Shown in pieces: positions 49,209 through 64,000 of a stretch of 64,000 nt of DNA. The notes under the pieces are model-generated. The model ran no database searches and had not been told where the DNA came from. It worked only from the letters and a program-made list of their open reading frames with translations. The stretch's first letter is position 1; the number at the start of each line of letters is the position of its first letter. Made by a program: the position numbers and the translations under genes. Origin of the DNA: Bacteroidaceae bacterium (GTDB taxonomy: Bacteria > Bacteroidota > Bacteroidia > Bacteroidales > Bacteroidaceae); assembly GCA_017557635.1 (NCBI GenBank), contig JAFYYH010000021.1, forward strand, positions 46,363 through 110,362. Direction: 5' to 3'.

Positions 49209-50330
49209 ATGAAGATAGTCATTCTGGGAACCGCCTGGCCCTATCGCGGAGGAATAGCCGATTTCAACAACCGGCTGGCGCAGGAATTCATAAAGGAGGG
49301 TAATGAGGTCAAGATATTCACCTTCACCCTCCAGTATCCGTCATTCCTGTTTCCCGGCAAGACCCAGTACTCGCCTGACCCACAGCCCCAAGGCCTGGAC
49401 ATTGTAAGGAGTCTGAACTCAGTCAATCCCTTCAACTGGATCAAGGTGGGCCGTCAGATCAGACGTGAAAAACCGGATCTGCTGATTGTACCTTTCTGGA
49501 TGCCGTTCATGGGACCCTCAACCGGTTTCGTATCACGCATGGCCCGTAAGTGCGGCGCCCGCAGAGTTGCCATACTTCATAACCTCATACCCCACGAGCA
49601 CAAACCCGGTGACAAGATCCTGTCACGCTATTTCATCAAATCCGTTGACAGCTTTGTGGCACTGTCCGAATCAGTAAGGGACGATATCAGTCTGTTTGAT
49701 ACCAAAAAGCCCCGTACATTCAGCCCACACCCGCTCTATGACCACTTTGGTGAACTTGCCACAAGAGAGGAGTCTCTTAAGCATCTGGGACTTGATCCCG
49801 CTTACCACTACATACTCTTCTTTGGACTGATACGTGACTACAAAGGCCTGGACCTGCTGCTCAGGGCATATGCCGACAGCCGCCTGCGTGAACTCAACGT
49901 ACGTCTGCTGGTGGCAGGTGAGTTCTACGGCAGTTCCGACAAATACTTTGAACTTGAGAAAGAACTGGGACTTGAGGGACTCATCATCTGGAAGAACGAG
50001 TTTGTTCCCAGTGAAGAGGTCCGATACTGTTTTGGTGCGGCCGATATCATTGCACAGCCCTACAAGACCGCCACTCAGAGTGGCGTATCACAGATAGCCT
50101 ATCACTTTTGCAAGCCCATGCTGGTAACCAACGTAGGCGGACTGGCCGAGATCGTTCCCGACGGAAAAGCCGGTTACGTTGTAGAGCCCGAGCCCACCCG
50201 AATTGCCGATGGATTGGTGGATTTCTTTGCAAATGAGCGACAGGAGCAGTTCGCCAAGGGTATCCTTGACGAGAAGAACAAATACTCCTGGAGTAAGATG
50301 ACTCAGGCTATTCTTCAGTGTAAAATCTGA
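49209..50330 (+). CDS. GT4-family glycosyltransferase
   Basis: 373 residues, GT-B fold. N-terminal GTAWPYRGGIADFNNRLA is the acceptor-side glycine loop. The C-terminal half has ILFFGLIRDYKGLDLLLRAY, ADIIAQPYKTATQSGVSQIAY and PMLVTNVGGLAEIV, the nucleotide-sugar-binding EX7E-like region. It is cytoplasmic, probably membrane associated, and likely works with the upstream YfhO protein. Its 3' end overlaps the convergent M64 gene by 23 bp. Confidence 0.9.
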   Translation: MKIVILGTAWPYRGGIADFNNRLAQEFIKEGNEVKIFTFTLQYPSFLFPGKTQYSPDPQPQGLDIVRSLNSVNPFNWIKVGRQIRREKPDLLIVPFWMPFMGPSTGFVSRMARKCGARRVAILHNLIPHEHKPGDKILSRYFIKSVDSFVALSESVRDDISLFDTKKPRTFSPHPLYDHFGELATREESLKHLGLDPAYHYILFFGLIRDYKGLDLLLRAYADSRLRELNVRLLVAGEFYGSSDKYFELEKELGLEGLIIWKNEFVPSEEVRYCFGAADIIAQPYKTATQSGVSQIAYHFCKPMLVTNVGGLAEIVPDGKAGYVVEPEPTRIADGLVDFFANERQEQFAKGILDEKNKYSWSKMTQAILQCKI

Positions 50331-51525
50331 TGATTCGCTCAAGCGAGCGCTGACAGACAGGGCAGAATTCCGGGTATTTGTTTGTCTTCATACGGCAGTC
50401 AAACGAGCCGCGCCATACACCTTTTGACATATACCCTCCTCCTTCATACAGATCTGCCTTTTCAGGCATCATATCCTTCCATTTGCTGTCAAAGTCAACC
50501 TTTGTAGTAATGTTGGGCTCCCAGGGCTCAGTTTCGGAATTATAGTACTGCTCGTACTGGTCATCGTAGAAATACTCATCGGCCAAGCCGCCGAAACTGT
50601 GTCCGAACTCGTGTACCACAACGGGAGCGAATTGCGCGTGATGGGCGGTGGTAAGGGTGTATGAATTGAATATTCCGCCTCCTCCATAGACATCGGTATT
50701 GGCCAGTATGATGATATGCTCATAAGGAATACCAGCCAGTTTATCATGCAGTTGCCTTAACCTCAGGGTGGTCAGATATCGGTCCGAATAGAATGTGCTG
50801 AAAGATGAATTCAAGGCCGTTTCAGTCCAAAGGCCCTCCTTAGGAACACTTACCTCTCCGTCCCTGGATTCAAGTTCCACTGCAAGGATATTGAAACGGT
50901 CCTGAAGGGTCTTGAACGGTTCATGTGAGAACAGACTGTTCACTGCAATGCCTGCATCCTTGTAGAAAAGATCCATTTGATGGGCGGTATAGCCCTCCGG
51001 AACAATCACTACATCAATGCATTTCTCAGGACTGCCACCCTGATGAAGATATTTCCATTTTGCAGGGTTCTGACCTATCTTGCGGATAAGGATATCCTCC
51101 GGGTCAACGGTGTGACGCAGGGAGGCTACCACCTTGTTGTAATTGTCTGTAAGCTTAACCTCGACCACTGCTTTTGCGGATGGCATGGGCAGCAGGTAGA
51201 CGTTCTCAAAACTGCGGTCCACCTGGGTTGCCTCCTCGGTGTTCTGCCACTCCTGGAACAGGGTGCTGAAGGAGTTGCGGAACAGGGTGTCACCCGTGGC
51301 GGCATCGGTCATGGTTATCTGACCGTTTCCTTCCAGATATAAGTCTTTGAGATTGACACGGCGTCCGTACCAACCGTCTATCACATTCAGGTCATCAAGA
51401 TAGATGTGTGACTCCTTGCTGTTGCCGGAGAATGTATAATTGACCCTGAGGGTCTGATCCTGGGCATGAACAGCGGCTGCCAGCAACAGCAGCGCTATAC
51501 TATTCTTCAGTCGAAACCAGTTCAT
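50308..51525 (-). CDS. Secreted M64-family (IgA peptidase-type) metallopeptidase
   Basis: 405 residues from the ATG at 51525, which gives a clean signal peptide (LLLLAAAVHAQ); the frame continues 12 codons upstream. The N-terminal M64 beta domain is followed by the catalytic zinc site VVHEFGHSFGGLADEYFY (His, Glu, His and the Asp of the motif), and CPVCQRSLERI near the end. M64 enzymes cleave IgA in Clostridium; in gut Bacteroidetes the target is not known. Its start overlaps the rnr 3' end by 26 bp and its 3' end the convergent GT4 gene. Confidence 0.87.
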   Translation of the reverse strand: MNWFRLKNSIALLLLAAAVHAQDQTLRVNYTFSGNSKESHIYLDDLNVIDGWYGRRVNLKDLYLEGNGQITMTDAATGDTLFRNSFSTLFQEWQNTEEATQVDRSFENVYLLPMPSAKAVVEVKLTDNYNKVVASLRHTVDPEDILIRKIGQNPAKWKYLHQGGSPEKCIDVVIVPEGYTAHQMDLFYKDAGIAVNSLFSHEPFKTLQDRFNILAVELESRDGEVSVPKEGLWTETALNSSFSTFYSDRYLTTLRLRQLHDKLAGIPYEHIIILANTDVYGGGGIFNSYTLTTAHHAQFAPVVVHEFGHSFGGLADEYFYDDQYEQYYNSETEPWEPNITTKVDFDSKWKDMMPEKADLYEGGGYMSKGVWRGSFDCRMKTNKYPEFCPVCQRSLERIIRFYTEE

Positions 51526-53668
51526 AATCCATCTGTTTCTTTTCAAGGTTGCAGCGTACAACTTTTACCTTTACATGGTCACCCAGGCGGTAACGCTTGC
51601 GGGTGCGCTGGCCTATGATGCAGTAGTTCTTCTCATCGAACTCAAAGTAATCACCGCCCAGTGAGCGGATGCCTATCATGCCCTCGCACTTGTTTTCTAT
51701 GATTTCAGCGTAGATTCCCCACTCTGTCACACCGCTTATGACGGCATCGAATACCTGTCCCATACGGTCTGACATGTACTCTACCTGCTTGTACTTGATG
51801 CTGGCGCGCTCTGCCTGCTCAGCCAGCTGCTCCTGTGCCGAACAATGCTCGCAGTACTCCTCATACTTGCCCTGGTTCACACTGCGGCCGCCTCCGATAT
51901 AACGGGTAAGCAGGCGGTGTACCATAAGGTCGGGGTAACGGCGTATGGGTGATGTAAAGTGGGTGTAGAACTTGAATGCCAGACCATAGTGGCCGATGTT
52001 ATCGGTGGTGTAGCAGGCTTTCTGCATGGAGCGGATTGAGATGGTCTCAATGAGCTCCTGCTCCTTCTTGCCCTTGACCTCTGAGAGCATCTTGTTCATG
52101 GACTTGGCCATCTCGGCGGGATCACCGTTGGTCTTGAGCTTGTAACCGAACTTGGCAACAAAGTTCTGCAGATTCTCCATGCGCTCGGGATCCGGCTCAT
52201 CATGAACACGATAGACAAATGTCTTAGGATTGCCGCCCTTGACTTTGCCGATGAATTCGGCAACGGTGCGGTTAGCCAGCAGCATGAACTCCTCGACCAG
52301 CTGGTTGGCATCCTTGGACTCCTTGAAGAAGACGCTTACGGGATGTCCGGTCTCGTCTATATCAAAACGAACCTCGACACGGTCAAAACTGAGTGCTCCG
52401 TCAGCAAAACGCTTGGCACGCAGTATCTTGGCCAGACTGTCCAGGGTCATTATCTCTGTCTTGAACTCATCGCCCGGCAGAGGCTCCTTTCCGCCCTGCT
52501 GCTCACGCTCAATGATTGCCTGAACCTCCTCATAGGCAAAACGGCGGTTGCTGCGGATAACGGTACGTGCTATGCGGGAGCGTTTGACAACGCCGGCATC
52601 GGTCATCTCAAGGATTACCGAGTATGTGAGTTTATCCTCATCCTGACGCAGTGAGCACAGGTTGTTACAGAGTTTCTCAGGCAGCATGGGTATGGTGCGG
52701 TCCACCAGATAGACTGATGTGGCGCGCTTGAATGCCTCCTTATCTATTATACTGCCCTCCTGTACGTAGTAACTTACATCGGCAATATGTACGCCTACCT
52801 CCCAGAGTCCCTTCTTGATGGGACGGATGGAGAGCGCATCGTCAAAGTCCTTGGCATCGTGCGGGTCAATGGTGAATGTTACCACGTCACGGAAATCCTC
52901 ACGTCCGGCCAGAGCGGCATCGGTGATATCGGCCGATATGTCATCGGCGGCACGCTCAACATTCTCGGGATAGGTGTAGGGCAGTCCGTATTCGGCCAGG
53001 ATGGCATGCATCTCGGTGTTGTTCTCACCGGCGGCACCCAGTATGTCTATGACCTTTCCAACTGGGTTGCGGTCAGGGGTATCGGGCCATTCAACGACCT
53101 TGACAACTGCCTTCTCACCGTCACGGCCCTTCTTGAGGTTGGATATGGGTATGAATATGTCACGGTCCGATTTGTCCGGGGTAACCAGGTAGGCGAACTT
53201 GCCCTTGACCTGAAGCGTACCTACAAAGGTATCCTTGGCGCGCTTGAGTATCTCGGTCACCTCACCCTCGGGACCAGAATGGGGACGGCGTGCAAAGAGC
53301 ACAATCTTGACGCGGTCACCGTTAACGGCACCGGCCGAGTTACGCTCTGCAACGAATATGGGATCACCTCCGTCATCGGGCACAAGGAAGTTCTTGCCGC
53401 CTACACGGCGCTGCAGCACGCCCTCCACGAACTTGCTCTTCTGCATGAGTTGGAACTGACCGTCCTTCTCCTTGAGGAAACCGTCCTCAACAAGATCCAG
53501 TACTATGTCCAGGCACATGCTGCGCATGGGATGAGTCTTGAGTTTAAGCTCATCATACAGACGCTTTACACTGATGGAATGATCCTGATTGTCACGGAAC
53601 CAGTCAGTAATAAGGTCCGTCATGGTTCTGCGGTTGAGACGGACTCCTCCTTTGAAAGATCTACCCAT
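51500..53668 (-). CDS. rnr: Ribonuclease R
   Basis: 722 residues. Winged-helix N-terminus (about 15-75), two cold-shock domains (about 80-230), the RNB nuclease domain with DPHDAKDFDDALS (acidic metal site) and HFTSPIRRYPDLMVHRLL, then a C-terminal S1 domain (ISGVTEWGIYAEI). It is a 3'-5' exoribonuclease able to degrade structured RNA. It lacks the long Lys-rich tail of the E. coli protein. Confidence 0.95.
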   Translation of the reverse strand: MGRSFKGGVRLNRRTMTDLITDWFRDNQDHSISVKRLYDELKLKTHPMRSMCLDIVLDLVEDGFLKEKDGQFQLMQKSKFVEGVLQRRVGGKNFLVPDDGGDPIFVAERNSAGAVNGDRVKIVLFARRPHSGPEGEVTEILKRAKDTFVGTLQVKGKFAYLVTPDKSDRDIFIPISNLKKGRDGEKAVVKVVEWPDTPDRNPVGKVIDILGAAGENNTEMHAILAEYGLPYTYPENVERAADDISADITDAALAGREDFRDVVTFTIDPHDAKDFDDALSIRPIKKGLWEVGVHIADVSYYVQEGSIIDKEAFKRATSVYLVDRTIPMLPEKLCNNLCSLRQDEDKLTYSVILEMTDAGVVKRSRIARTVIRSNRRFAYEEVQAIIEREQQGGKEPLPGDEFKTEIMTLDSLAKILRAKRFADGALSFDRVEVRFDIDETGHPVSVFFKESKDANQLVEEFMLLANRTVAEFIGKVKGGNPKTFVYRVHDEPDPERMENLQNFVAKFGYKLKTNGDPAEMAKSMNKMLSEVKGKKEQELIETISIRSMQKACYTTDNIGHYGLAFKFYTHFTSPIRRYPDLMVHRLLTRYIGGGRSVNQGKYEEYCEHCSAQEQLAEQAERASIKYKQVEYMSDRMGQVFDAVISGVTEWGIYAEIIENKCEGMIGIRSLGGDYFEFDEKNYCIIGQRTRKRYRLGDHVKVKVVRCNLEKKQMDYELVSTEE

Positions 53669-53703
53669 ATTGAGAATGTTTTGTTCTGTTTACGAAGATA
53701 CAA

Positions 53704-53742
53704 ATTAAAAATCGGAAGCAGTGCTCTGCCTCCGATTTTAAT
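53704..53742. terminator. Terminator between gntR and rnr
   Basis: AAAATCGGA.GCAG pairs with CTGC.TCCGATTTT around a TGCT loop, with A/T runs on both sides. It ends the minus-strand ABC/GntR unit; because rnr is also on the minus strand, rnr needs its own promoter. Confidence 0.75.
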
Positions 53743-53743
53743 T

Positions 53744-54082
53744 TTAAAGACCCAAGTCTGATGCCTTGAGTTGAAGTAGCTCCATCTTCCGTTTTATTAT
53801 GGGCACTTCATTTTCGATGAAATCAACCCTCATTTTTTCCAATGCGATGGCTTTTGCGCCTTCGGCCACAAAGTATCCTATGCCTCGCTGGTTGAAGATG
53901 ATGCCATCCATCGTAAGTTTCTCATAACTGCGCATGGCTGTATTGGGATTCACTCCAAGCTCTCCGCCCAGTTCACGTACTGACAGTATCCTGTCACCCT
54001 CCTTCAGTTCTCCGCTCAGAATCTTTTCATTGATTCCATCGGCTATCTGAAGGTATATCGGTTTGTTCTGATTGAATTCCAT
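53744..54082 (-). CDS. GntR-family regulator of the ABC operon
   Basis: 112 residues, the short YtrA-like form: a winged-helix GntR domain (IYLQIADGINEKILSG, RILSVRELGGELGVNPNTAMRSYEKL, GIGYFVAEGA) followed by only a short helical tail (about 75-112) and no large effector domain. It is third in the operon, 12 bp after the permease gene. YtrA-type regulators usually repress the ABC transporter beside them. Confidence 0.9.
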   Translation of the reverse strand: MEFNQNKPIYLQIADGINEKILSGELKEGDRILSVRELGGELGVNPNTAMRSYEKLTMDGIIFNQRGIGYFVAEGAKAIALEKMRVDFIENEVPIIKRKMELLQLKASDLGL

Positions 54083-54094
54083 AAGACAGTCCTA

Positions 54095-54964
54095 TTAATG
54101 TTTGATCTTTCTTACTCTGAAATAAATGGCGATTGCAAGTCCCAGGTTGACAACCGTATCAGTAATGCAATCCATCAGTACTGCATGCTTCATGCTCCAT
54201 GATATGAACGGGAAAGACTCGAAGATCTCCTCGGGGGACATATTGCTGGCAGCAGCCTCCTTGAATCTCTCAACAGCTCCGTGCATTATTATAGGAGTGG
54301 TAATCATGCTTAATGCAATGCTTATAAGGATCAGGCAACCTATGGTCTTGGCCGGTTTTGATGACTTGAACAACAGGGCGCCAAGAAGGAAGATAAGGAA
54401 TCCTTCGGCCAGATCATCGGCATACATCCAGGGAGAAGTCATTATTGAGTAGTCAGGAATAATATTCTGTGTCTCCAGACTGGCTTTCTTGAATATGTCG
54501 CTCAGGACGGTCTGACCATTGTTGATTGCAATTATCAAAGAGTCGCCGCAACGGCTGTCAATCAGGCAGAGAATCTGATCCAATGACAGGTAAATTGCAA
54601 AGAATGCAAACGGAACTATCACACAGCAGACAATTATCATTGAAAGAACCTTCTCCAGTGAAGAGGCCGGTACCATGAGGAATGAAGATCCCTCTTTCTT
54701 ATCGGTGATGAAACCGTATATCTTGGCAGGGGCCGTAATAGTCAGAACAATCAGTGTTATACCAAGTATAGTTGATCTGGGTGCTACTTCCAGACTATAC
54801 CAGCCTGCACCTACTATCATTGTAAAGAATCCTACCAACAGGTAACCGGTAATGCAGATTGTTGCCATTATGAGAAATGAAATACCGTATCTTGCAATAG
54901 CATTCTTGATATCGGTCATAAGATAACGACCGAATCGGTTCATATTCAAAACATCATTATTCAT
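54095..54964 (-). CDS. ABC transporter permease-type membrane protein
   Basis: 289 residues from the ATG at 54964 (MNNDVLNMNRFGRYL); an ATG at 54976 is possible. About six transmembrane helices. The N-terminal amphipathic MNRFGRYLMTDIKNAI segment and a conserved KEGSSFLMVPAS loop between helices are seen in Bacteroidales permeases next to YtrA-like regulators. Partner of the ATP-binding protein 14 bp upstream. The substrate is not evident. Confidence 0.75.
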   Translation of the reverse strand: MNNDVLNMNRFGRYLMTDIKNAIARYGISFLIMATICITGYLLVGFFTMIVGAGWYSLEVAPRSTILGITLIVLTITAPAKIYGFITDKKEGSSFLMVPASSLEKVLSMIIVCCVIVPFAFFAIYLSLDQILCLIDSRCGDSLIIAINNGQTVLSDIFKKASLETQNIIPDYSIMTSPWMYADDLAEGFLIFLLGALLFKSSKPAKTIGCLILISIALSMITTPIIMHGAVERFKEAAASNMSPEEIFESFPFISWSMKHAVLMDCITDTVVNLGLAIAIYFRVRKIKH

Positions 54965-54977
54965 AGCCGTAATCATT

Positions 54978-55805
54978 TTACTTGTTGAACATTTCCTTAA
55001 TCTCATTCTTGTGCAGCAGAACTGCATTGAACAGAGCCTCGATGTTGACCTTGCTCTCAGCACCTGTGGTGTTGCGTACTACCTGTATGTTGCCGCCCGG
55101 TACCATCTCCTGATAGAGTGCGTTGGGATCAACATCCGTTGAGTAGTCGAAATAGAGTTTTTCAGCGATTTCATCGAGTGATGCATTCAGCAATACATCC
55201 CTGCGGTCCAGAATAATGATGGGATCGATGATAGCCTCCAGGTCACGTGCCTGGTGCGTTGAGATAAGCAGTGTCGAATCATCGGACGTGTACTTTGAAA
55301 CAGCCTTGCGGAACTGAGCCTTTGAAGGGATGTCAAGTCCGTTTGTCGGCTCGTCCATGAAAAGGTATTTGGTATTGCAAGCAAGGGCGAAGCTGATGAA
55401 TGTCTTCTTGAGCTGACCGTATGACATCTGATCCATACGCTGATTCTGGTCAGTATCAAACACAGTCATAATCTCAGAGAACTTCTGGGCGTTGAAGTTG
55501 GTCCAGTACTGTCCGTGATCAATTGCAAAATCTATTGCCTTACGACGCGGTGCAGGAACCTCATCGGGCAGATAATAGATATTGGAGAGAAAAGAAGGTT
55601 CACGGTTATATGGTTTCTGACCGTCAATCTCCAATGTTCCGTCTTCGACCTTCTTAAGGCCGGCAAGCAAGGTAAGCAGAGTAGTCTTACCCACTCCGTT
55701 CTCTCCCAGAAGACCGTATATGCGTCCCTCCTGGAGATCCATCGAAATGTCCTTCAGTACGACGTGCTCGTCATAACTGAATCCTAATTTCTTGATTGTA
55801 ATCAT
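54978..55805 (-). CDS. ABC transporter ATP-binding protein
   Basis: 275 residues. Walker A GLLGENGVGKTTLL, the signature MSYGQLKKTF in place of the classical LSGGQ, Walker B YLFMDEPTNGLD, and the H-loop STHQARDLEA. First gene of the ABC-permease-GntR operon. The MSYGQ signature is common in YtrB/EcsA-like exporters. It probably serves export or a stress response to envelope-active compounds. Confidence 0.93.
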   Translation of the reverse strand: MITIKKLGFSYDEHVVLKDISMDLQEGRIYGLLGENGVGKTTLLTLLAGLKKVEDGTLEIDGQKPYNREPSFLSNIYYLPDEVPAPRRKAIDFAIDHGQYWTNFNAQKFSEIMTVFDTDQNQRMDQMSYGQLKKTFISFALACNTKYLFMDEPTNGLDIPSKAQFRKAVSKYTSDDSTLLISTHQARDLEAIIDPIIILDRRDVLLNASLDEIAEKLYFDYSTDVDPNALYQEMVPGGNIQVVRNTTGAESKVNIEALFNAVLLHKNEIKEMFNK

Positions 55806-55850
55806 AGTCGTATCGTTTGTTTATCGGTGTATTACTTCACTAAGACACTG

Positions 55851-55880
55851 CAAATATAAGGCGTATTTCTTTACATGCAA
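55851..55880 (-). promoter_or_regulatory. Promoter of the ABC/GntR operon
   Basis: Minus strand TTG (55878-55880), 19 nt, TATATTTG (55851-55858). Operator half-sites for GntR could overlap but I see no clear palindrome. Confidence 0.65.
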
Positions 55881-55942
55881 CAAGATTAACGTATTTTAAC
55901 TATACACTACGTGCGTGCTGCGTGTGTGCGTACCTTTTTTGA

Positions 55943-56105
55943 GCCATACCTGTCACCACAAGCGTTGTAACCCCGATTCCCTGCAAGTATGGCTCCAAAA
56001 ATGGCCAAAACCCGGGTTTTCGCTGCCATACTTGCAGAAAACCGCCCTTAAAAGACCTTTTTACGCAGGTATGGCCATTTTAAAGAATACGCGGCACCTG
56101 CGTAA
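55943..56105. repeat. Inverted repeat, left copy (nested palindromes)
   Basis: 163 bp that reappear in reverse at 59232-59394 with 9 mismatches by eye (about 94 percent). The internal structure is symmetrical: GCCATACCTG (55943-55952) pairs with CAGGTATGGC (56066-56075), CTGCAAGTATGGC (55981-55993) pairs perfectly with GCCATACTTGCAG (56025-56037), and AAAACCCGGGTTTT sits in the inner loop. It ends with GAATACGC.GCACCTGCG, the core shared with the repeats of RAYT-1. No gene lies between 55806 and 56162; bases 55905-55940 are an alternating CG-rich tract. Confidence 0.9.
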
Positions 56106-56135
56106 TTGGTTTGTCAGCAATTATCCATATATTTG
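56106..56135 (+). promoter_or_regulatory. Promoter of the helicase gene
   Basis: TTG (56106-56108), 19 nt, TATATTTG (56128-56135). The -33 box begins at the first base after the inverted repeat. An alternative TTTG at 56110 gives a 14-nt spacer. Confidence 0.55.
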
Positions 56136-56162
56136 CCACACAAGAAACCTGATTGCTATACT

Positions 56163-58316
56163 ATGAAAAAAGATCATCTCTTTGAACTGGCCGAGAATTA
56201 CATTTCCCAGACGGGAATCTCGGTGTTTTTGACCGGCCGCGCCGGAACCGGAAAAACCACATTCCTAAAGTACATTGTTGAGAATACGCCCAAGCGCTGC
56301 GTAGTGCTTGCGCCAACTGGTGTTGCCGCAATCAATGCGGGCGGCGTAACAATCCATTCATTTTTCCAGCTGCCTCTGTGCCCCTATCTGCCCGACGTTG
56401 AGGAGCTGGTAACGGAGTATCAGCTGCCCGAGGCCAGGCGCCAACTGCGTAAGGAAAAAGTCAAAATCATCAAAACGCTGGACCTGCTCATCATCGATGA
56501 GATTTCAATGGTCCGTGCAGACCTCCTGGATGCTGTAGATGCTGTGATGCGCCGATACCGCCACAACAACAAACCGTTCGGCGGAGTCCAGTTGCTCATG
56601 ATAGGTGATGCACACCAGCTCCCGCCGGTAGTGACCGAGCAGGATGAGCCCTGGCTCAAGAAGGTCTACCAGTCACCGTTCTTCTTCCACTCCAAGGTGA
56701 TGCGGCAGCTCAAATATGTGACCATCGAACTGCAAACAGTTTACCGTCAGTCAGATACATCTTTCCTGGATATACTCAACAGCATTCGGGACGGAGTGAT
56801 GGACAACGCCACTTACCGTATGCTGAACAGTCGCCTTGACCCGCGATTCAATCCCGATGACAGCGTAGCCGTATCGGGCAGCCGATGGATCCGCCTGACC
56901 ACTCACAACCGTCAGGCCGACAGCATCAACCAGGAGAAGATGGAGGCACTTAAGACCCGCCTCTACACATTCTATGCCGAGATCGAGGGCAATTTCCCTG
57001 AGAACACGCTCCCCGCTGAGAAGGTACTTCAACTCAAAGAGGGCGCACAGGTTATGTTCCTGCGAAACGACTCCCGCGAGGGCCGATATTATAACGGAAA
57101 AATTGCCACCGTAACCTCCATAGACTATGATGACGGCATCACAGTGACCGATGAAAACGGCGATGAAATCAAGGTTCCCATCGAGAAATGGGAGAACATC
57201 CAATACGAGATAGACAAGGAAACAAAGGAGATTGTACCAAAGGTTGAAGGCACATTCTCGCAGTATCCACTACGTGCCGCGTGGGCAGTCACAATCCACA
57301 AGAGCCAGGGTTTGACATTTGACAATGTTATCATTGATGCGGTATCGGCCTTTAGTTTCGGACAGGTTTATGTGGCTCTTTCACGCTGCCGAACACTTGA
57401 GGGTATCGTTCTGAGCAGTCCTATTTCACAATCCTGCCTCTTCAATAACAGCGATGTATCCGGATTCCATGAGCAGTTCCAGCCGGTATCTGAGATGGAG
57501 CGTCAGCTGGAGGCATCGCGGGCGGAATATTTCATGAACAATCTCAAGGAGTGCTTTACATTCAGCGAACTGGAAAGACTTACCGGTTGGGCAGGCGGAA
57601 TATTCAACAACCATCTAAAGAACACCTATCCGGAGCAGACATCAAGGATGGAGGAGAACCGTCGCAAGGTCAGGGATATCGAGAAAATCGCCGAGGCATT
57701 CCGACGTGAACTGGACCGAATAGGTCTTAATGACAAAGCCCACCTTGATGAGAGAGTCGGTAAAGCAGCCGGATATTTCCTGCCGATTTTGATTGAAGTG
57801 GCTTCGGATGTAACTCCCATTATGTCCGTTTCCATCGACAATAAGGATGTCAAAAAGACGCTTACGGAGGCATCGGGCGAACTCCTGCCGGAACTCTCCA
57901 TGCATCTTCAGAGCATGAAGGAGATACTTGAAAACGGTTTCAGCATAGAATCATACCTCAGAATCAGGAATGATGCGCTGCTGTCGCCCAAGCCCAAGAC
58001 GTCAATCAAGAAGGTCAAGGAGCCCAAACCTGTCAAGGAAAAGGAAATCAAAACCAAGCCCACCATCGAGGAAATCTACTCCGACAACCGCCACCCCGAA
58101 CTGATCCAACCCCTCATAGACTGGCGAACCGAGCAATACATATCCCAGAACATCCGCGCCTACTGGGTACTCACCCAACGCACCCTCCTGGAAATAGCCG
58201 ATACCTGCCCGTCGACCAAAGAGGAACTCCTGGCAGTAAACGGATTCGGCCCCGCAAAATGGAAGCAGTACGGTGAGGAAATCCTGGAACTGATAAAACT
58301 CCATCGTAAGGATTGA
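56163..58316 (+). CDS. PIF1-like DNA helicase with C-terminal HRDC-type domain
   Basis: 717 residues from the ATG at 56163; the open frame reaches 56106 but that extension would cover the promoter. SF1 helicase motifs: Walker A LTGRAGTGKTTFL (residues about 23-35), VLAPTGVAAINAGG (Ia), LLIIDEISMV (II), IGDAHQLPPV (III), VYRQSD (IV), VTIHKSQGLTFDNVI (V) and VYVALSRCRTLEGI (VI), close to PIF1/RecD2. The middle 200 residues are family specific, a Lys/Pro-rich linker runs near 610-645, and the last 70 residues resemble HRDC (NIRAYWVLTQRTLLEIAD, NGFGPAKWKQYGEE). It probably unwinds DNA 5' to 3' and may resolve secondary structures. It lies inside the inverted repeats, 54 bp before RAYT-2. Confidence 0.9.
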   Translation: MKKDHLFELAENYISQTGISVFLTGRAGTGKTTFLKYIVENTPKRCVVLAPTGVAAINAGGVTIHSFFQLPLCPYLPDVEELVTEYQLPEARRQLRKEKVKIIKTLDLLIIDEISMVRADLLDAVDAVMRRYRHNNKPFGGVQLLMIGDAHQLPPVVTEQDEPWLKKVYQSPFFFHSKVMRQLKYVTIELQTVYRQSDTSFLDILNSIRDGVMDNATYRMLNSRLDPRFNPDDSVAVSGSRWIRLTTHNRQADSINQEKMEALKTRLYTFYAEIEGNFPENTLPAEKVLQLKEGAQVMFLRNDSREGRYYNGKIATVTSIDYDDGITVTDENGDEIKVPIEKWENIQYEIDKETKEIVPKVEGTFSQYPLRAAWAVTIHKSQGLTFDNVIIDAVSAFSFGQVYVALSRCRTLEGIVLSSPISQSCLFNNSDVSGFHEQFQPVSEMERQLEASRAEYFMNNLKECFTFSELERLTGWAGGIFNNHLKNTYPEQTSRMEENRRKVRDIEKIAEAFRRELDRIGLNDKAHLDERVGKAAGYFLPILIEVASDVTPIMSVSIDNKDVKKTLTEASGELLPELSMHLQSMKEILENGFSIESYLRIRNDALLSPKPKTSIKKVKEPKPVKEKEIKTKPTIEEIYSDNRHPELIQPLIDWRTEQYISQNIRAYWVLTQRTLLEIADTCPSTKEELLAVNGFGPAKWKQYGEEILELIKLHRKD

Positions 58317-58370
58317 AAGCAGTTTTGCTAATTCCTTGTTTGTATTTAATTCTTAATACCTTTTCCTATC

Positions 58371-59234
58371 ATGAAAAAAATGATTCATTGTTGCTTTACT
58401 TCCCATCAGGAGGTGATGTTCCGAAGTCCGCAGGATGTGGGCTTCTTCCTTAACTTGCTTGCACTTACCTCCTGGAAGTACGGTGTTGACATTTTTGCCG
58501 ATACGGAGATGTCAAACCACGTTCATTTACTGTTGTTTTCATCGGACAAAACCGAGACCAGACTATCCGTAGGCCCATATTCGAAGACCGTTACCAAGCC
58601 CGGTTTTGACAGGGACGGAAGCATCCTTTACTCCGACTCAAACCAGTTGTCTGATTTTGTGAGCGCCTTACGAAAGCGTTACACATGGTATTTCACCGAA
58701 AAATACCAGCGTGACTGCGGCGGAAGAATGGGTGAGAAATACTACTTCTCGCTGATTATTGAAGGAAATTATCATATGATTTCAGCCTGCAGTTATGTGC
58801 TCAGAAACGGCCTTCATCATGGAGTTTCGGGTACTTCATTCATGTATCCATATTCATCCATCAATGATATGTTCATTCCCGAATTGGGGAAAACGGACCG
58901 CCCCTACCAGGGAAACCGTAACCCCGATGAAAAATGGCTTGAAGAGCAGGACCAGGACAGGAACGGCAAACCCGCCATTGGCATTTCTGACATAGAACCC
59001 ATCCACAATGAGGATGCCGTCAAATCCTATCTGTACAACGAACGCGCTGCGACTTTCCGTAACTGTCGGAACGACATAGACTTGTGCGGTATTATTGACA
59101 GATGCATACTCCCTGAATTCAAATCCCCATCCATATACCAGCTCAGCCGCGATAAGCGGGAATCCATCAAAAGGATACTAATAAATGATTTCCATGTGTC
59201 CGACAGTCAGGCTTCCCGCTGCCTGTGGCTGTAA
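58371..59234 (+). CDS. REP-associated Y1/HUH transposase (RAYT-2)
   Basis: 287 residues. HUH motif His50-Val-His52 (EMSNHVHLLLF), the likely catalytic Tyr104 or Tyr107 in RKRYTWYFTEKYQR, and the conserved VLRNGLHHG. Relative to RAYT-1 it has an insertion of about 30 residues between the HUH motif and the tyrosine. The C-terminal domain (about 210-287) matches that of RAYT-1 (ND..LCGIID, PSIYQLSRDK, INDFHVSDSQASRCL). The stop codon is the first three bases of the right inverted repeat. Nicking of the repeat hairpins is inferred from the family. Confidence 0.85.
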   Translation: MKKMIHCCFTSHQEVMFRSPQDVGFFLNLLALTSWKYGVDIFADTEMSNHVHLLLFSSDKTETRLSVGPYSKTVTKPGFDRDGSILYSDSNQLSDFVSALRKRYTWYFTEKYQRDCGGRMGEKYYFSLIIEGNYHMISACSYVLRNGLHHGVSGTSFMYPYSSINDMFIPELGKTDRPYQGNRNPDEKWLEEQDQDRNGKPAIGISDIEPIHNEDAVKSYLYNERAATFRNCRNDIDLCGIIDRCILPEFKSPSIYQLSRDKRESIKRILINDFHVSDSQASRCLWL

Positions 59235-59394
59235 CGCAGGTGCTGCGTATTCTTTAAAATGGCCATACCTGCGTAAAATGGCCTTTAAATGGCGGTTTTC
59301 TGCAAGTATGGCAGCGAAAACCCGGGTTTTGGCCATTTTTGGAGCCATACTTGCAGGGAATCGGGGCTACAATGCTTGTGTTGACAGGTATGGC
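59232..59394. repeat. Inverted repeat, right copy (nested palindromes)
   Basis: Reverse complement of 55943-56105 with 9 mismatches. It starts at the RAYT-2 stop codon and retains all palindromic arms: the 13-bp CTGCAAGTATGGC/GCCATACTTGCAG pair and AAAACCCGGGTTTT are unchanged. The fact that the mismatches fall largely outside the long arms suggests constraint on the hairpins. Confidence 0.9.
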
Positions 59395-59396
59395 CG

Positions 59397-59431
59397 CAAA
59401 ACAACGGTCCGCAACCGGGAGCTGCGGACCG
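59397..59431 (-). terminator. Terminator after the CoA-transferase gene
   Basis: CGGTCCGCA pairs perfectly with TGCGGACCG across a 9-nt loop; the minus strand continues TTGTTTTG. It lies between the right repeat and the gene end. Confidence 0.6.
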
Positions 59432-59451
59432 CTGGTATTCCAAAGGGTGGA

Positions 59452-60933
59452 TTAAAACTCGGCAAGGTGCATGTCGCCCTTCTCGGCCAGGGCCTTGTGG
59501 AGAGCAAAGGCTTTGTCCAGAGCGTGGCTGGTCTGACCCTTCTCGGCAATCTTGAGGTAATCCCACATGAGTTGCTTGTAGTCAGGGTGAACGCAGTTCT
59601 CGATGATGCACTTGGCGCGCTGGGCGGGTGACTTGCCGCGCAGATCGGCAATACCCTGCTCGGTGATGAGCACCTTTACGCTGTGCTCGTTGTGGTCAAC
59701 GTGTGAGCACATGGGAACGATGGCGCTGATCTTGCCTCCCTTGGCGGTTGACGGGCAGCTGAAGATTGAGATGAATGCGTTACGGGTGAAATCGGCTGAA
59801 CCGCCCACACCGTTCATCATCTTGACGCCACTTACGTGAGTTGAGTTCACGTTGCCGTAGATATCGGCCTCCAGGGCAGTGTTCATTGCGATCAGACCCA
59901 GACGGCGTGCAATCTCGGGGCTGTTTGAAATCTCGGTAGGACGGAGCACCAGCTTGTCCTTGAAGAAGTCCATATCATCGTAGATGCCCTGCAGGGTCTC
60001 GTTACTTACGCTCAGTGATGAGCTTGAACCGAACTTGCAGTGGCCCTCACGCATCAGGTCGATAACTGAATCCTGGATAACCTCAGTGTACATCTGGAAT
60101 GCGGGAACTGAAGGATCCTCACCCAGAGCACCCAGAACGGCGTTTGCAACATTACCTACACCGCTCTGCAGGGGCAGGAAGGTTGAAGGAATGATACCGC
60201 GCTTGAGGTCACTGATAAGGAACTGGGCTACGTTGTGACCGATCTGAAGAGTGGTCTCGTCAGGAGCGGTGAAGCCACGTGCCTCGTCGGGGATGTTAAC
60301 CTCAACGATACCTATGATCTTGGCGGGATCTACCTGGATGTAATCCTTGCCGATGTGGTCGCTGGGCTGATAGATGGGAATCTCGCGGCGATAAGGGGGA
60401 TCAGCCGGCTCGTAGATGTCATGCAGACCCTTGGCGCAGCGTGCGTGGGCTGCGTTCACCTCGATGATGATCTTCTCGGCCAGACGGGCTACTGTGGGGG
60501 CGATGCCCACACCTGCGGTTACCCAGATCTTACCGTCATCAGTCACGTCAAAGGCTTCCATGATGCCTACGTTGAGTTTGCCATAGAATCCGTAGCGCAT
60601 CTCCTGTGCCATGTGGCTCAGGTTGATGTCGTTGTAGGCGATTTCACCGTTGTTTACGGCTGTACGGAAATCCTTGTTGGTGGTGTAGGGAGCGCGGTAC
60701 TTGAGAGCGTGCTCGCGAGCCAGGATGCCGTCGCATGAATCGCCGGTTGAAGCACCGGTAAACAGACTGATCTGAAACTCCTGACCCTTCTCATGGAGTT
60801 CGTGGGCCATTAAACCGATCTCATGTGTCACAGCCTTGGGGGTACCTGCAGGGGTAAATCCGCTCAGACCTACGTTGTCACCGTTCTTGACAAAGCGTGC
60901 TGCCTCGGCAGCGGTCATTCTTTTGAAAGCCAT
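59452..60933 (-). CDS. Acetyl-CoA hydrolase / succinyl-CoA:acetate CoA-transferase family protein
   Basis: 493 residues. Family I CoA-transferase: GLSGFTPAGTPKAV, LFTGASTGDSCDG, the catalytic Glu in QMYTEVIQDSV near residue 285, the oxyanion/CoA segment GVGGSADFTRNA and VLITEQGIADLRGKSP. It moves CoA between acetate and succinate (or propionate), in keeping with succinate- and acetate-forming fermentation in Bacteroidales. Hydrolase and transferase activities cannot be separated by sequence. Transcribed alone and divergent from miaB. Confidence 0.9.
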   Translation of the reverse strand: MAFKRMTAAEAARFVKNGDNVGLSGFTPAGTPKAVTHEIGLMAHELHEKGQEFQISLFTGASTGDSCDGILAREHALKYRAPYTTNKDFRTAVNNGEIAYNDINLSHMAQEMRYGFYGKLNVGIMEAFDVTDDGKIWVTAGVGIAPTVARLAEKIIIEVNAAHARCAKGLHDIYEPADPPYRREIPIYQPSDHIGKDYIQVDPAKIIGIVEVNIPDEARGFTAPDETTLQIGHNVAQFLISDLKRGIIPSTFLPLQSGVGNVANAVLGALGEDPSVPAFQMYTEVIQDSVIDLMREGHCKFGSSSSLSVSNETLQGIYDDMDFFKDKLVLRPTEISNSPEIARRLGLIAMNTALEADIYGNVNSTHVSGVKMMNGVGGSADFTRNAFISIFSCPSTAKGGKISAIVPMCSHVDHNEHSVKVLITEQGIADLRGKSPAQRAKCIIENCVHPDYKQLMWDYLKIAEKGQTSHALDKAFALHKALAEKGDMHLAEF

Positions 60934-60979
60934 TTTGTATTATTATTTACTTGTTTGACTTCTTTGGTATAAAGTTGCG

Positions 60980-61010
60980 CAAAATTAACCATTTCCTAAT
61001 ATAAAAACAA
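60980..61010 (-). promoter_or_regulatory. Promoter of the CoA-transferase gene
   Basis: Minus strand TTG (61008-61010), 20 nt, TAATTTTG (60980-60987). It is back to back with the miaB -7 box, 1 bp away. Confidence 0.65.
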
Positions 61011-61011
61011 G

Positions 61012-61029
61012 TAAATTTGCACCCGCAAA
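61012..61029 (+). promoter_or_regulatory. miaB -7 element with short palindrome
   Basis: TAAATTTG (61012-61019) runs into TTTGCACCCGCAAA (61016-61029), identical in 14 bases to the typA start region. Confidence 0.6.
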
Positions 61030-61039
61030 ACAAAGGAAT

Positions 61040-62371
61040 ATGGAAGAGGGAACAAAGAAACTGTTCATTGAGACTTACGGCTGCCAGATGAATGTGGCAG
61101 ACAGCGAGGTTATTGCATCAATCATGCGCATGGCGGGTTACGAGCCCACCGAAAGCATTGATGAGGCCGATGCCATATTCCTGAACACATGCTCCATCCG
61201 TGAGAACGCCGAGCAGAAGATCTGGAACCGCCTGGAGGCGCTCAACGCCCTCAAGAAGAAGAAAAAGAATCTTTACATCGGCGTAATGGGCTGCATGGCC
61301 GAGCGCACCAAGGAGGACCTGACCGAAAACCATCATGTTGACGTTGTCTGCGGTCCCGACGCCTACCTCTCGCTGCCGGACCTGATGGCTCAGGTCGAGG
61401 CCGGACACAAGGCAATGGATGTGGAGCTCTCCACCACTGAAACCTACCGCGATATCATACCCGAGCGCATTTGCGGCAACCACATCAGCGGATTCGTATC
61501 AATCATGCGCGGCTGCAACAATTTCTGCCACTACTGCATTGTTCCCTACACCCGAGGCCGTGAGCGCAGCCGTGATCCGCAGAGCATTCTGAACGAGGTT
61601 CTCGATCTTAAGAAAAAAGGTTACAAAGAGGTTACCCTTTTAGGTCAGAACGTGAACTCATACAAGTTTGAAAACGGTGAATCCACCGTAGGATTCCCGC
61701 AACTTCTCCGCATGGTTGCCGAGGCCGTTCCCGAGATGAGGGTAAGGTTCACCACTTCACATCCCAAGGATATGAGTGATGAGACCCTGCATGTAATTGC
61801 CGAGGTTCCCAATATCTGCCGTCACATACACCTGCCGGTTCAGAGCGGAAGCAGCCGCATACTCAAACTGATGAACCGCAAGTACACCCGTGAGTGGTAT
61901 TTGGAGCGTGTAGATGCAATCAAACGTATCATCCCCGACTGCGGTCTTACCACCGATATGTTCACCGGCTACCACTCAGAGACCGAGGAGGATCATCAGG
62001 AGAGCCTGTCACTCATGCGTGAGTGCCGTTTTGATGCCTCATTCATGTTCCGCTACTCGGAGCGTCCAGGCACATATGCCAGCAAACATCTGCCCGACAA
62101 TGTTCCCGAGGAGATCAAGATCCGCCGCCTGAACGAGATGATAGAACTCCAGAACCAGTTGTCACTGGAACGCAACCGCGAGTGCATCGGCCATGAGTAT
62201 GAAGTTCTGGCCGAGGGTTATTCCAAGCGCTCCCGTCAGCAGCTTTACGGCCGCACCGAGCAGAACCGTACCGTTGTCTTTGACAAAGGCACCCACCGTC
62301 CGGGCGATTTCCTCAAAGTCCGCATCACAGACGCCACCTCCGCCACCCTATTTGGCACTGAATTGTGCTGA
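61040..62371 (+). CDS. miaB: tRNA-2-methylthio-N6-isopentenyladenosine synthase
   Basis: 443 residues. The N-terminal UPF0004 domain binds one iron-sulfur cluster (ETYGCQMN, NTCSIREN, GVMGCMAER), the radical-SAM core has RGCNNFCHYCIVPYTRGRE (CxxxCxxC), and a C-terminal TRAM domain ends in KVRITDATSATLFG. It adds a methylthio group to i6A37 of tRNAs reading UNN codons. GRERSR after the radical site and TSHPKDM are MiaB-specific. No operon partner upstream. Confidence 0.95.
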   Translation: MEEGTKKLFIETYGCQMNVADSEVIASIMRMAGYEPTESIDEADAIFLNTCSIRENAEQKIWNRLEALNALKKKKKNLYIGVMGCMAERTKEDLTENHHVDVVCGPDAYLSLPDLMAQVEAGHKAMDVELSTTETYRDIIPERICGNHISGFVSIMRGCNNFCHYCIVPYTRGRERSRDPQSILNEVLDLKKKGYKEVTLLGQNVNSYKFENGESTVGFPQLLRMVAEAVPEMRVRFTTSHPKDMSDETLHVIAEVPNICRHIHLPVQSGSSRILKLMNRKYTREWYLERVDAIKRIIPDCGLTTDMFTGYHSETEEDHQESLSLMRECRFDASFMFRYSERPGTYASKHLPDNVPEEIKIRRLNEMIELQNQLSLERNRECIGHEYEVLAEGYSKRSRQQLYGRTEQNRTVVFDKGTHRPGDFLKVRITDATSATLFGTELC

Positions 62372-62397
62372 AAACCAGCAAAAAAACCTTAAAACAC

Positions 62398-62429
62398 TTG
62401 ACAAGGGGGTTTTCGGGGTGTTATATTTG
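62398..62429 (+). promoter_or_regulatory. Promoter of the methyltransferase-ftsX unit
   Basis: TTG (62398-62400), 21 nt, TATATTTG (62422-62429). It is followed by a CG-rich alternating tract, GCGCGCGTTACGCG, in the 54-nt leader. Confidence 0.6.
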
Positions 62430-62483
62430 CGGTCACTTTGCGCGCGTTACGCGTAAGGCGCGTACATAGCGTGCACCTTTAGG

Positions 62484-63392
62484 ATGATTTATCAGGACTT
62501 CAAGCCTTGTCCCATTTGCGGAGCGTCAGGACAGATTCCCTATGCAAACTGCACTGACTTTACGGTAAGCAAAGAGTCATACACTCTTATGCGCTGTCCG
62601 TCGTGCGGTGTTGTTTATACGCTGGATCCTCCGTCCGAAGAGGAGATGAGCCGCTATGACAAGGTCAACCTGAAACTCAAACTGGGCGACTCCCCCTCCG
62701 GACTCATCGGCCGTCTTTACTATCATGTCCGCACCCGTATGCTCCGCAAGAAGGTCAAGATTGTTGAGTCACAGGCATACCGCACCGGCGGCTCACTCCT
62801 GAACTACGGAGCCAAGACCGGCTTCTTCTCATACAAGATGGAGAAACGCGGATGGAAGGTGACATCGGTAGAGAGATATCATGAGGAGAGGCTGTTCTCG
62901 CTTGAGATGTTCCATCACCGCATGATTGATGTGCCCGAGATGGATGCGCTGCACGCAGGCACGTTTGATGTCATCACAATGTGGCACGTTTTTGAGCACT
63001 GCCATAACCCCAACCAACTCCTGGACAGATTCTACGAGTTGCTCCGCCCGGGAGGCATACTGGTCATGGCCTGCCCGAATGTATGTTCGACCGATGCCAT
63101 GTACTACGGACCTTATTGGGCTGCGTACGATGTGCCCAGGCACCTCTGGCACTTCAATCCCAATTCATTAAGCGCATTGGCATACAGGCACGGATTCACA
63201 CTCATGCATCATGAGAAGATGCCTTATGACAGTTTCTACATATCGATTCTGTCCGAGAAGCATCTGCGTCACCGTATGTCATTCATCCGCGGAATGTATC
63301 ACGGACTGCGTTCTTGGCGGATTTCACTGACCAAACGTGGCCGAAGCAGTTCGCTGGTATATGTTTTCAGAAAGAGACAAGAAACAGAATAA
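62484..63392 (+). CDS. Zinc-ribbon class I SAM-dependent methyltransferase
   Basis: 302 residues. An N-terminal four-Cys zinc ribbon (CPICGASG, then CPSCGVVYTL) precedes a Methyltransf_23-type fold. Motif I is degenerate: the usual GCGTG is GAKTG in LLNYGAKTGFFSYKM. Then FDVITMWHVFEHCHNPNQLL (motif IV), GGILVMACPN and WAAYDVPRHLWHFNP, found in related enzymes. The substrate is unknown; relatives act on polysaccharides or lipids of the envelope. The ftsX gene begins 1 bp after the stop. Confidence 0.8.
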   Translation: MIYQDFKPCPICGASGQIPYANCTDFTVSKESYTLMRCPSCGVVYTLDPPSEEEMSRYDKVNLKLKLGDSPSGLIGRLYYHVRTRMLRKKVKIVESQAYRTGGSLLNYGAKTGFFSYKMEKRGWKVTSVERYHEERLFSLEMFHHRMIDVPEMDALHAGTFDVITMWHVFEHCHNPNQLLDRFYELLRPGGILVMACPNVCSTDAMYYGPYWAAYDVPRHLWHFNPNSLSALAYRHGFTLMHHEKMPYDSFYISILSEKHLRHRMSFIRGMYHGLRSWRISLTKRGRSSSLVYVFRKRQETE

Positions 63393-63393
63393 T

Positions 63394-64000
63394 ATGGTCA
63401 AACAAAAGAAAAAGAGAAAGATAGACCTGCTGTTCATCACAGCATGCATCAGCACGTCTTTGGTTCTGCTGCTCATAGGCATAGTGGCTCTGCTGCTGCT
63501 CACCGCCAATGACCTGTCACGCCATCTCAAGCAGGAGATGACAGTTGAGGTAATCCTCAAGGAGAGCATCACCGATACCCAACTCTCGACACTGCGCCGC
63601 GGCATTGAAGCATCGCCCTACTGCGCCGTATGCTCCTACATATCCAAGGAGGACGCCCTAAAGGATATGACCAAGGCCATGGGTACCGATCCCTCACAGT
63701 TCCTGGAGTACAATCCCTTCTACGCATCCTTGAACATACGTCTGGAGGCCGATTACGCCTGCAACGACAGCCTGAAGGTGATTGAAAAGAAGATTGCCGC
63801 ACAGGAGGGTGTGCGCGAGGTGACATGGCAGAAGGATCTGCTGGACATAATCAACAGCAACATACGCAAGGTTGCCGGTCTGCTGCTGATTCTGGCCATG
63901 ATACTCTCTCTGGTATCGTTCACACTCATAAACAACACTATCAAACTCACCATTTACGCCCAGCGTTTCGTGCTTTACTCCATGAAACTGGTAGGCGCCA
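63394..64000 (+). CDS. ftsX: Cell division protein FtsX (5' part, cut by the window end)
   Basis: Open from ATG at 63394 to the window edge, 202 codons without stop. N-terminal cytoplasmic basic segment (KQKKKRKIDLLF), transmembrane helix at about 12-35, periplasmic domain (about 40-150), then a second helix and FTLINNTIKLTIYAQRFV with MKLVGA, the conserved FtsX core. FtsX with FtsE forms an ABC-type divisome complex that activates peptidoglycan hydrolases. The remaining two helices lie beyond the window. Confidence 0.93.
   Translation, partial: MVKQKKKRKIDLLFITACISTSLVLLLIGIVALLLLTANDLSRHLKQEMTVEVILKESITDTQLSTLRRGIEASPYCAVCSYISKEDALKDMTKAMGTDPSQFLEYNPFYASLNIRLEADYACNDSLKVIEKKIAAQEGVREVTWQKDLLDIINSNIRKVAGLLLILAMILSLVSFTLINNTIKLTIYAQRFVLYSMKLVGA

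Follow-up and report, generated by a model that had tools for sequence, protein, structure and literature searches.

The window, i.e., the whole stretch of 64,000 nucleotides of Bacteroidaceae DNA analysed here, contains a gene for a PIF1-family helicase of 717 aa with a C-terminal HRDC domain (56163..58316, plus strand, with the ATG at 56163 and the stop codon ending at 58316) and, next to it, a gene for a RAYT/TIRYT-like HUH-Y1 protein of 287 aa (58371..59234, plus strand). The two genes are enclosed by inverted repeats of 168 nt that are 93% complementary in an arm-versus-arm comparison. The left arm lies on the helicase side (55936..56103, plus strand) and adjoins an ABC-transporter ATPase gene (54978..55805, minus strand); the right arm lies on the RAYT side (59234..59401, minus strand) and adjoins an acetyl-CoA hydrolase/CoA-transferase-like gene (59452..60933, minus strand). 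The latter and a MiaB-like gene (61040..62371, plus strand) are the first and second genes of block M, and a methyltransferase-like gene follows on the right flank (62484..63392, plus strand). The names of these four neighbours were read from their proteins; the ABC-transporter and methyltransferase-like genes stay put in related genomes.

The sequence-only reading had described inverted repeats around the helicase and RAYT genes and had set an inner edge of the repeats at the RAYT stop codon. Both observations were borne out, the right arm beginning on the final base of that codon. On the other side, the sequence reads TTTG at 56110, six bases past the end of the left arm, a putative -33 box of the helicase according to the sequence-only reading. 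A BLAST search within 170 kb of the contig also aligned the arms (92% over 180 nt, E=3e-67). Each arm holds three GCCATACYTGC sites of alternating orientation, and the left arm, taken as single-stranded DNA, folded better than 200 of 200 shuffled sequences (z -3.9). A scan of both strands found the GGGGWSAS motif in 0 of 31 arm copies. GT[AG]G was found in 30 of the 31, counted as a tetranucleotide alone, and so short a word has a high chance occurrence and is weak evidence.

The domain search assigned the helicase to PIF1 (E=1.4e-30) with HRDC (E=2.3e-16). Its best solved relatives, with E values from 1e-95 to 1e-106, are labelled as an AAA ATPase, a TPR domain protein or an ATP-dependent DNA helicase, and we take them to be bacterial PIF1s. 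The structures deposited as PIF1 helicase were matched at E<=2e-74. In the RAYT protein, the HUH and Tyr motifs are conserved in the alignment; we take NHVH to be the HUH motif and YVLRNG to be the Tyr motif. The same alignment showed that the window RAYT lacks an internal segment of 91 residues carried by nine orthologs. Its match to Pfam Y1_Tnp was under the cut-off (16.2 vs 23 bits), as were those of all seven RAYT proteins scanned. NCBIfam and PHROG scans gave no RAYT match at E<=0.001, and no solved structure matched RAYT by sequence at E<=10.

The repeats form a dispersed family. A genome-wide check of the kind that the sequence-only reading had proposed revealed, besides the two arms, four further sites in the source genome, and these further copies adjoin unrelated genes. 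Across the genus, repeats were detected at E<=1e-10 in 10 of 11 genomes having the window-type RAYT and in 2 of 26 others; at E<=0.001 the counts were 10/11 and 5/26. Both ends of the helicase–RAYT block carry repeats in eight of the ten other RAYT genomes, with G006 (left-end repeat partial, at a contig end) and G010 (right arm with an internal deletion) counted. Of the remaining two, G009 has a repeat at one block end only, and G013 has no arm by the repeat model, its contig stopping just past RAYT; the region upstream of the G013 helicase has one other copy in that genome (73%). Meanwhile, no significant repeat copy was present at the helicase ends in any of 12 RAYT-less genomes, two weak repeat-model matches at the helicase boundary of G033 (E 0.37 and 1) being left out of the count. 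Since the longest exact inverted match between the helicase boundaries of these 12 genomes is only 6–11 nt, no alternative arms were found in them either. The repeat and RAYT make up a TIRtron/REPtron-like pair, and the repeats were presumably spread by RAYT. Four paralogous RAYT stretches (L085–L088) and L089 of G018 were compared by their proteins and the window genes only.

An HUH gene together with a PIF1 helicase inside inverted repeats could suggest a Helitron-like or IS-like bacterial mobile unit bringing its own helicase. The comparison of helicase neighbours did not bear out the Helitron-like possibility raised by the sequence-only reading. A close relative of the helicase (66–96%) occurs with the window's own neighbours in 22 of the 22 other genomes examined, ten of which have RAYT and repeats and 12 of which do not; the helicase thus keeps to one locus throughout. 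None of the 61 genomes searched has a further full-length match to the helicase at E<=1e-60. The helicase and the HUH protein are encoded by two separate ORFs (56163-58316 and 58371-59234) rather than by a Rep-helicase fusion, and the similarity of the helicase to Helraiser (2e-16) is far weaker than that to the PIF1-type structures. The HEL and RAYT data do not fit the tree of the flanking genes, which the AU test rejects (p<=1.3e-4), and therefore sequence at this locus has been exchanged between species. Nevertheless, with the helicase being an ordinary chromosomal gene that keeps its locus with or without RAYT and repeats, and with repeats beside unrelated genes, the two findings that the sequence-only reading had itself named as refuting, the Helitron or transposon reading was rejected on synteny, and a mobile unit is extremely unlikely. 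Of the "transposable or REP-expanding unit" proposed earlier, the part that stands is a dispersed repeat co-occurring with RAYT; the unit with its own helicase does not. The site is one of chromosomal rearrangement and not a jumping element with helicase cargo, and a helicase and an HUH gene inside inverted repeats should not be read as a Helitron.

What is new in this analysis, and absent from the sequence-only reading, is that the helicase–RAYT block is inverted between several related species within a cluster of uncultured bacteria from the gut. The window contig and G036 are collinear over ~155 kb except for exactly 55943-59394, which is flipped. Orientation also differs between the sister tips G019/G021 (support 1.00), G000/G002 (0.78) and G017/G011 (0.76); among the genes behind this tree is the helicase, and its history is at odds with that of its neighbours. 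By parsimony, block M changed orientation in five steps, the state of G006 being inferred as its contig has no block M genes. In the tally of all genes, 17 of 318 mapped genes were discordant: four of block H, two of block M and 11 elsewhere, some of which (at C19:159920) are probably not orthologs. The Fisher comparison of orientation (9/14 vs 11/314) mixes genome-loci with genes, concerns a locus picked for its repeats and has a denominator not purged of all H and M genes; it is given no weight here. Phase variation is unsupported as an explanation: judging from the sequence, the arms also enclose the stretch that precedes the helicase start codon, and this stretch moves with the block. Inspection by eye of the ORFs at window positions 50000-64000 picked out no recombinase.

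The inversion might be unrelated to these repeats. The genus may often invert blocks at short or other palindromic repeats, with the RAYT repeats merely sharing the same intergenic gaps as bystanders. Small inversions with no detectable long repeats were indeed seen at C19:129117-130460, 150089-154177 and 90341-100030. The helicase flipped as frequently in RAYT-less as in RAYT-bearing tips (four parsimony steps in 12 tips vs three in 11); as its orientation varies in genomes devoid of both RAYT and repeats, the window repeats are not the sole route to inversion. Another palindromic family, with a partial fit to GGGGWSAS, occupies these block ends in G020, G017 and G009 and is plentiful in a number of genomes across the genus. 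The bystander role is nonetheless quite unlikely, given that the breakpoints against G036 coincide exactly with the repeats and that marker sites switch from flank to gene a single time, within the repeat, both for G021/G019 and for three locus-2 quads.

This switch was clearest in the best pair, G021/G019, in which 49 flank-following sites at -59 to 100 are succeeded by 17 gene-following sites at >=143 with no interleaving. Of the seven quads mapped, four were in clean order, two had one misplaced site each (position 14 in G000/G036 at locus 1; position -54 in G002/G036 at locus 2) and one, G010/G017, was uninformative. Two further quads that were mapped separately, G002/G026 and G000/G026, lacked the pattern, with 0 flank-following sites in the former and 1 in the latter; in the G026 contig concerned, one outer flank is a near copy of the other. 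In the cleanest comparisons, then, the breakpoints lie within the repeats. The crossover interval was 100-143 at locus 1, and at locus 2 it was <104 for G010/G036 and >152 for G002/G017. As the intervals vary, they fit homologous recombination and not one fixed site.

The genomes compared are drafts, in at least four cases MAGs, and a short-read assembly could have put the arms together the wrong way round, the more so in G000 and G026, whose arms share 76 and 56 identical consecutive bases. The longest exact arm match is, however, 18–19 nt in G019 and G021, 23 nt in G036 and 12 nt in G011, and exact stretches of 12–23 nt are too short to mislead most assemblers. Since the flank and gene markers also switch consistently within the repeat, an assembly artefact is extremely unlikely.

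Two other loci were informative. At locus 2, the same repeats surround four genes, which stand in one orientation in three of six genomes and in the other in three. Locus 3 has another RAYT and another repeat family; it is flipped in three of ten readable genomes, own genome included; of these three, G010 has repeats at both ends and the others have them at a single end. In G036, a third repeat copy lies beyond the neighbouring genes. Twenty stretches were fetched around other repeat copies and the five of locus 2 (L162–L166) were studied; as the 15 other fetched repeat sites were left out, loci 1–3 are not a random sample.

The flipping could in principle be the work of RAYT itself, which would nick the hairpins of the arms and provoke or perform strand exchange, perhaps helped by the co-oriented helicase. 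The linkage and co-occurrence of RAYT and repeats speak for this, as do the two distinct repeat families that flank flipped blocks, each beside its own RAYT, and the fact that HEL and RAYT are adjacent in all 11 genomes with the window-type RAYT. Against it, crossover intervals differ between events, the window RAYT misses its 91 residues, flipped blocks without RAYT exist (G002 at locus 1; G020 at locus 3), though later loss is possible, and we know of no reciprocal inversions by Y1 HUH enzymes. We therefore regard a RAYT-driven inversion as unlikely. The bolder proposal, very unlikely in our view, is a RAYT-based shufflon, in which RAYT families would keep inverted pairs of palindromic repeats as switch points and RAYT, with the neighbouring PIF1-HRDC helicase, would promote reversible inversion and permutation of gene blocks.

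The explanation that we consider probable is an ordinary PIF1-HRDC helicase locus beside RAYT and its repeats, where homologous recombination between inverted copies flips the block. A RAYT-type HUH endonuclease gene and palindrome-rich, TIRtron/REPtron-like repeats would reside beside the chromosomal helicase gene, with one repeat copy in opposite orientation on each side of the helicase–RAYT pair. Reciprocal homologous recombination of the two copies would then invert the block without loss, and a third copy past the neighbouring genes, as in G036, would allow further inversions and changes of gene order. The crossover is presumably made by the general recombination of the host rather than by RAYT, and the inversion may be mostly neutral because the upstream region travels within the block. 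This ties RAYT-associated repeats to gene-block inversions that recur and whose breakpoints have been mapped; the locus offers a testable natural system for the effect of RAYT on the inversion rate at its repeats.

Among the matches listed (titles and abstract starts), the open-access literature gave none that dealt with inversions ending at RAYT repeats or with operons of RAYT and a helicase. One paper, in its accessible part, mentions RAYTs as well as inversions close to one Pseudomonas origin, without a connection between them (PMC3390384). The features shared with TIRtrons and REPtrons are a RAYT flanked by inverted repeats, here enclosing the helicase too, and the dispersal of those repeats in the genome. 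As far as the available portion of the TIRtron/TIRYT paper (PMC3733652) goes, a RAYT-like gene likewise lies between long inverted repeats, self-complementary in some cases, and a number of these repeats also make up a dispersed family of moderate abundance, while GGGGWSAS is common to some TIRs only; the present locus differs by the extra helicase gene, the lack of GGGGWSAS and the inversion of the block between species. The word "inversion" is absent from the main text of that paper. Like the REPtron/REP-BIME system, in the part of its description available (PMC6006769), the locus has a probable HUH-Y1 protein tied to its own palindromic repeats with no apparent movement as a unit; unlike that system, it has long composite repeats of low copy number. 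Canonical REPtrons carry GT[AG]G at the foot of a REP hairpin; here it was seen as a tetranucleotide. Helitrons differ by the two ORFs and the one fixed locus found here. In the accessible text on Wolbachia, an enclosed element also flips at a fixed site, by TIR-TIR recombination (PMC3004938), but that element is an insertion sequence, whereas the genes flipped here are residents of the chromosome, at several loci and beside repeats of two families. The dispersed TRIP1 repeats of E. coli are similarly said to drive chromosomal inversions, although the inversion there spans 1.3 Mb and the accessible part of the paper does not mention a RAYT link (PMC10888264). Finally, invertons and shufflons share with this locus the inversion at inverted repeats, which was seen here between species and with a crossover position that varies.

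The two inverted repeats that the sequence-only reading placed around a helicase and an HUH gene are real and enclose both genes. The left arm (55936-56103 of the window) and the right arm (59234-59401) are inverted copies of each other, with 93% complementarity over 168 nt. Between them, the Pfam search identified a 717-aa PIF1 helicase (56163-58316) having an HRDC domain at its C-terminal end, and a 287-aa HUH protein, the RAYT (58371-59234), starts 54 bases past the helicase stop. The RAYT carries NHVH and YVLRNG, which we take to be the HUH and Tyr motifs. Its score against Pfam Y1_Tnp was 16.2 bits, below the cut-off of 23, and six further RAYT-like proteins, four of them orthologs of the window type, were all under this cut-off as well. 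PMC6006769 states that most members of the class give no more than a partial alignment to this profile. Nine orthologs are 377-378 aa long and contain a 91-aa internal in-frame segment, near residue 185, that is absent from the window RAYT; the tenth (G009, L084:8649-9293) is cut short, with 131 aa to the first stop and a remnant downstream. Two more Y1_Tnp proteins of the window's own genome G000 (C20:126786-127016, L022, and 227676-228035, L023) scored 43 bits, above the cut-off that the window RAYT misses.

The comparison of the window with the related genome G036 over ~155 kb and 98 mapped genes showed that the change in orientation is limited to the helicase and RAYT (block H), the aligned inverted segment being 55943-59394. 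Block M comprises the next two genes, acetyl-CoA hydrolase-type and MiaB-like, and the two blocks are flanked by an ABC-transporter gene on the left and a methyltransferase-like gene on the right. Of the eight possible signed orders of H and M, six were read directly: H+M+ in nine genomes (G000 counted), H-M+ in six, H+M- in three, and H-M-, M-H- (G010, partly at a contig end) and M+H+ (G009) in one each. In G006, H adjoins the right flank and M lies beyond the contig; in G013, only H+ beside the ABC-transporter gene is visible. Four relatives are uncultured Bacteroidales MAGs, RUG in the MAG names presumably denoting rumen genomes. On a tree of seven concatenated genes, the helicase among them, sister tips differ in block orientation. 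H changes orientation 7 times on this tree against a mean of 6.8 for shuffled labels; therefore, no phylogenetic signal could be detected in the orientation.

In the clearest comparisons, the inversion breakpoints fall in the arms. When G021 (H+) was compared with G019 (H-), 49 sites from -59 to arm position 100 followed the flank and 17 sites, all from position 143 onward, followed the gene. Locus 2, a C15 repeat pair of the same family, has orientation A in G000, G002 and G010 and orientation B in G026, G036 and G017. It showed the same flank-then-gene order, the last flank and first gene sites being 12 and 104 in G010/G036, 53 and 108 in G000/G036, and 152 and 159 in G002/G017, where the outer flank of G017 is beyond its contig. 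The comparisons of G000/G036 at locus 1 (the arms of H) and G002/G036 at locus 2 were imperfect, with one misplaced site each, and put the switch at 108-162 and 21-53, respectively. The G010/G017 quad was uninformative for the switch position, and the G002/G026 and G000/G026 quads gave no flank-then-gene pattern (0 and 1 flank-following sites; both outer flanks of the G026 contig are near copies). As the crossover intervals differ between events, homologous recombination is favoured over a fixed site. The longest identical run shared by the arms is 18-19 bases in G019 and G021, which argues against misassembly.

Locus 3 is a second RAYT-like gene (199-1131) whose repeats, of a different family, lie at ~1-87 and 1114-1208; C19:42502-42596 is a further copy in inverted orientation. 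The adjoining two-gene block is flipped relative to its flanks in 3 of the 10 genomes read (G000 counted): in G010 (with the RAYT), where repeats lie at both ends, and in G015 and G020, where just one end has a repeat copy. It is not flipped in G000, G002, G011, G017, G019 (partial), G021 and G036; no match was obtained for the G006 stretch. Loci 2 and 3 entered the analysis because each has a repeat pair, out of a larger set with 15 further repeat sites.

RAYT-less tips also flip H (4 steps in 12 tips versus 3 in 11 RAYT-bearing tips). Across seven genomes, 17 of 318 comparisons of gene orientation were discordant; for the 11 of these that lie outside H and M, a search for bracketing long inverted repeats gave none. 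Small gene-block inversions between relatives (C19:150089-154177 and 129117-130460) had no detectable long inverted repeats. Another palindromic repeat with GGGGWCWG cores, part of its copies fitting GGGGWSAS, is abundant in several genus genomes and is located at gene-block ends (L148:10119-10154 and 13132-13167; L079:8823-8863; L084:3190-3430), at the same ends in G020, G017 and G009, and may serve other flips. Pattern hits number from 0 to ~150 per genus genome searched, G021 having 76+72 (one figure per strand) and G000 having 3. An inverted repeat pair (222 nt, 90%) around 1.5 kb was also seen in G036 (C4:59359-61332). In the AU test, the helicase and RAYT data each rejected the flank tree, indicating that the locus was also exchanged between species; the flanks, concatenated for this tree, may be mosaic too.

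A helicase match at E<=1e-60 was present in 28 of the 37 genomes of the genus set, and its neighbourhood was inspected in 25 genomes besides G000, the partial matches of G028 and G031 being left out. The window's own neighbours flank it in 22 of these 25 (identity 66-96%; flanks only partly on the contig in G006, G013, G002 and G010); in G016, G030 and G034 (helicase identity 54-55%), no window neighbour was found within the 18-kb stretch. Among the 22, the RAYT is beside the helicase in 10 and absent in 12, and in none of these 12 did the repeat-model search give a significant hit at either end of the helicase. Since the same locus occurs with or without the RAYT, and lacks the repeats in RAYT-less genomes, the helicase does not travel with them, and the proposal of a mobile unit with its own helicase was not borne out. 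The G010 helicase (L076:6706-8818) matches in two pieces, its frame apparently broken or mis-assembled.

The repeats form a dispersed family linked to the RAYT, with six places in G000: the two locus-1 arms, the C15 pair around transport/metabolism genes, and two isolated composite copies, one on C11 and one on C18. There, 18 of 21 GCCATACYTGC sites are at repeat places (reversed-pattern control, 9). At E<=1e-10, repeats were found in 10 of 11 genus genomes with the RAYT versus 2 of 26 without it (Fisher p=2e-6, kinship ignored), the exceptions being G013, with the RAYT only, and G002 and G008, with repeats only; at E<=0.001, the counts were 10/11 and 5/26. Both block ends carry repeats in 8/10 other RAYT genomes. 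GT[AG]G, the tetranucleotide at the foot of REPtron hairpins, is present in 30 of 31 arms, although so short a word is likely to occur by chance. In the arm tree, a clade with support 1.00 unites the arms of G017, G019 and G021 with the RAYT-side arm of G011 and no others, in agreement with a split in the RAYT tree. The helicase-side arm of G011 departs from this agreement, and the arm of G009, a genome having this RAYT type, lies just outside the clade. The suggestion of a REP-expanding unit finds partial support in the repeats, which are dispersed and track the RAYT; the helicase is no part of a moving unit.

We conclude that the locus is a TIRtron-like RAYT system adjoining a resident helicase gene, its inverted repeats serving as endpoints of inversion. 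Each piece is already known; the literature searched gave no example in which they are combined, at three loci and with the crossovers mapped. The RAYT-linked repeat family agrees with the TIRtron concept (PMC3733652), although the motif published for it, GGGGWSAS, occurs in none of the 31 arm copies here.
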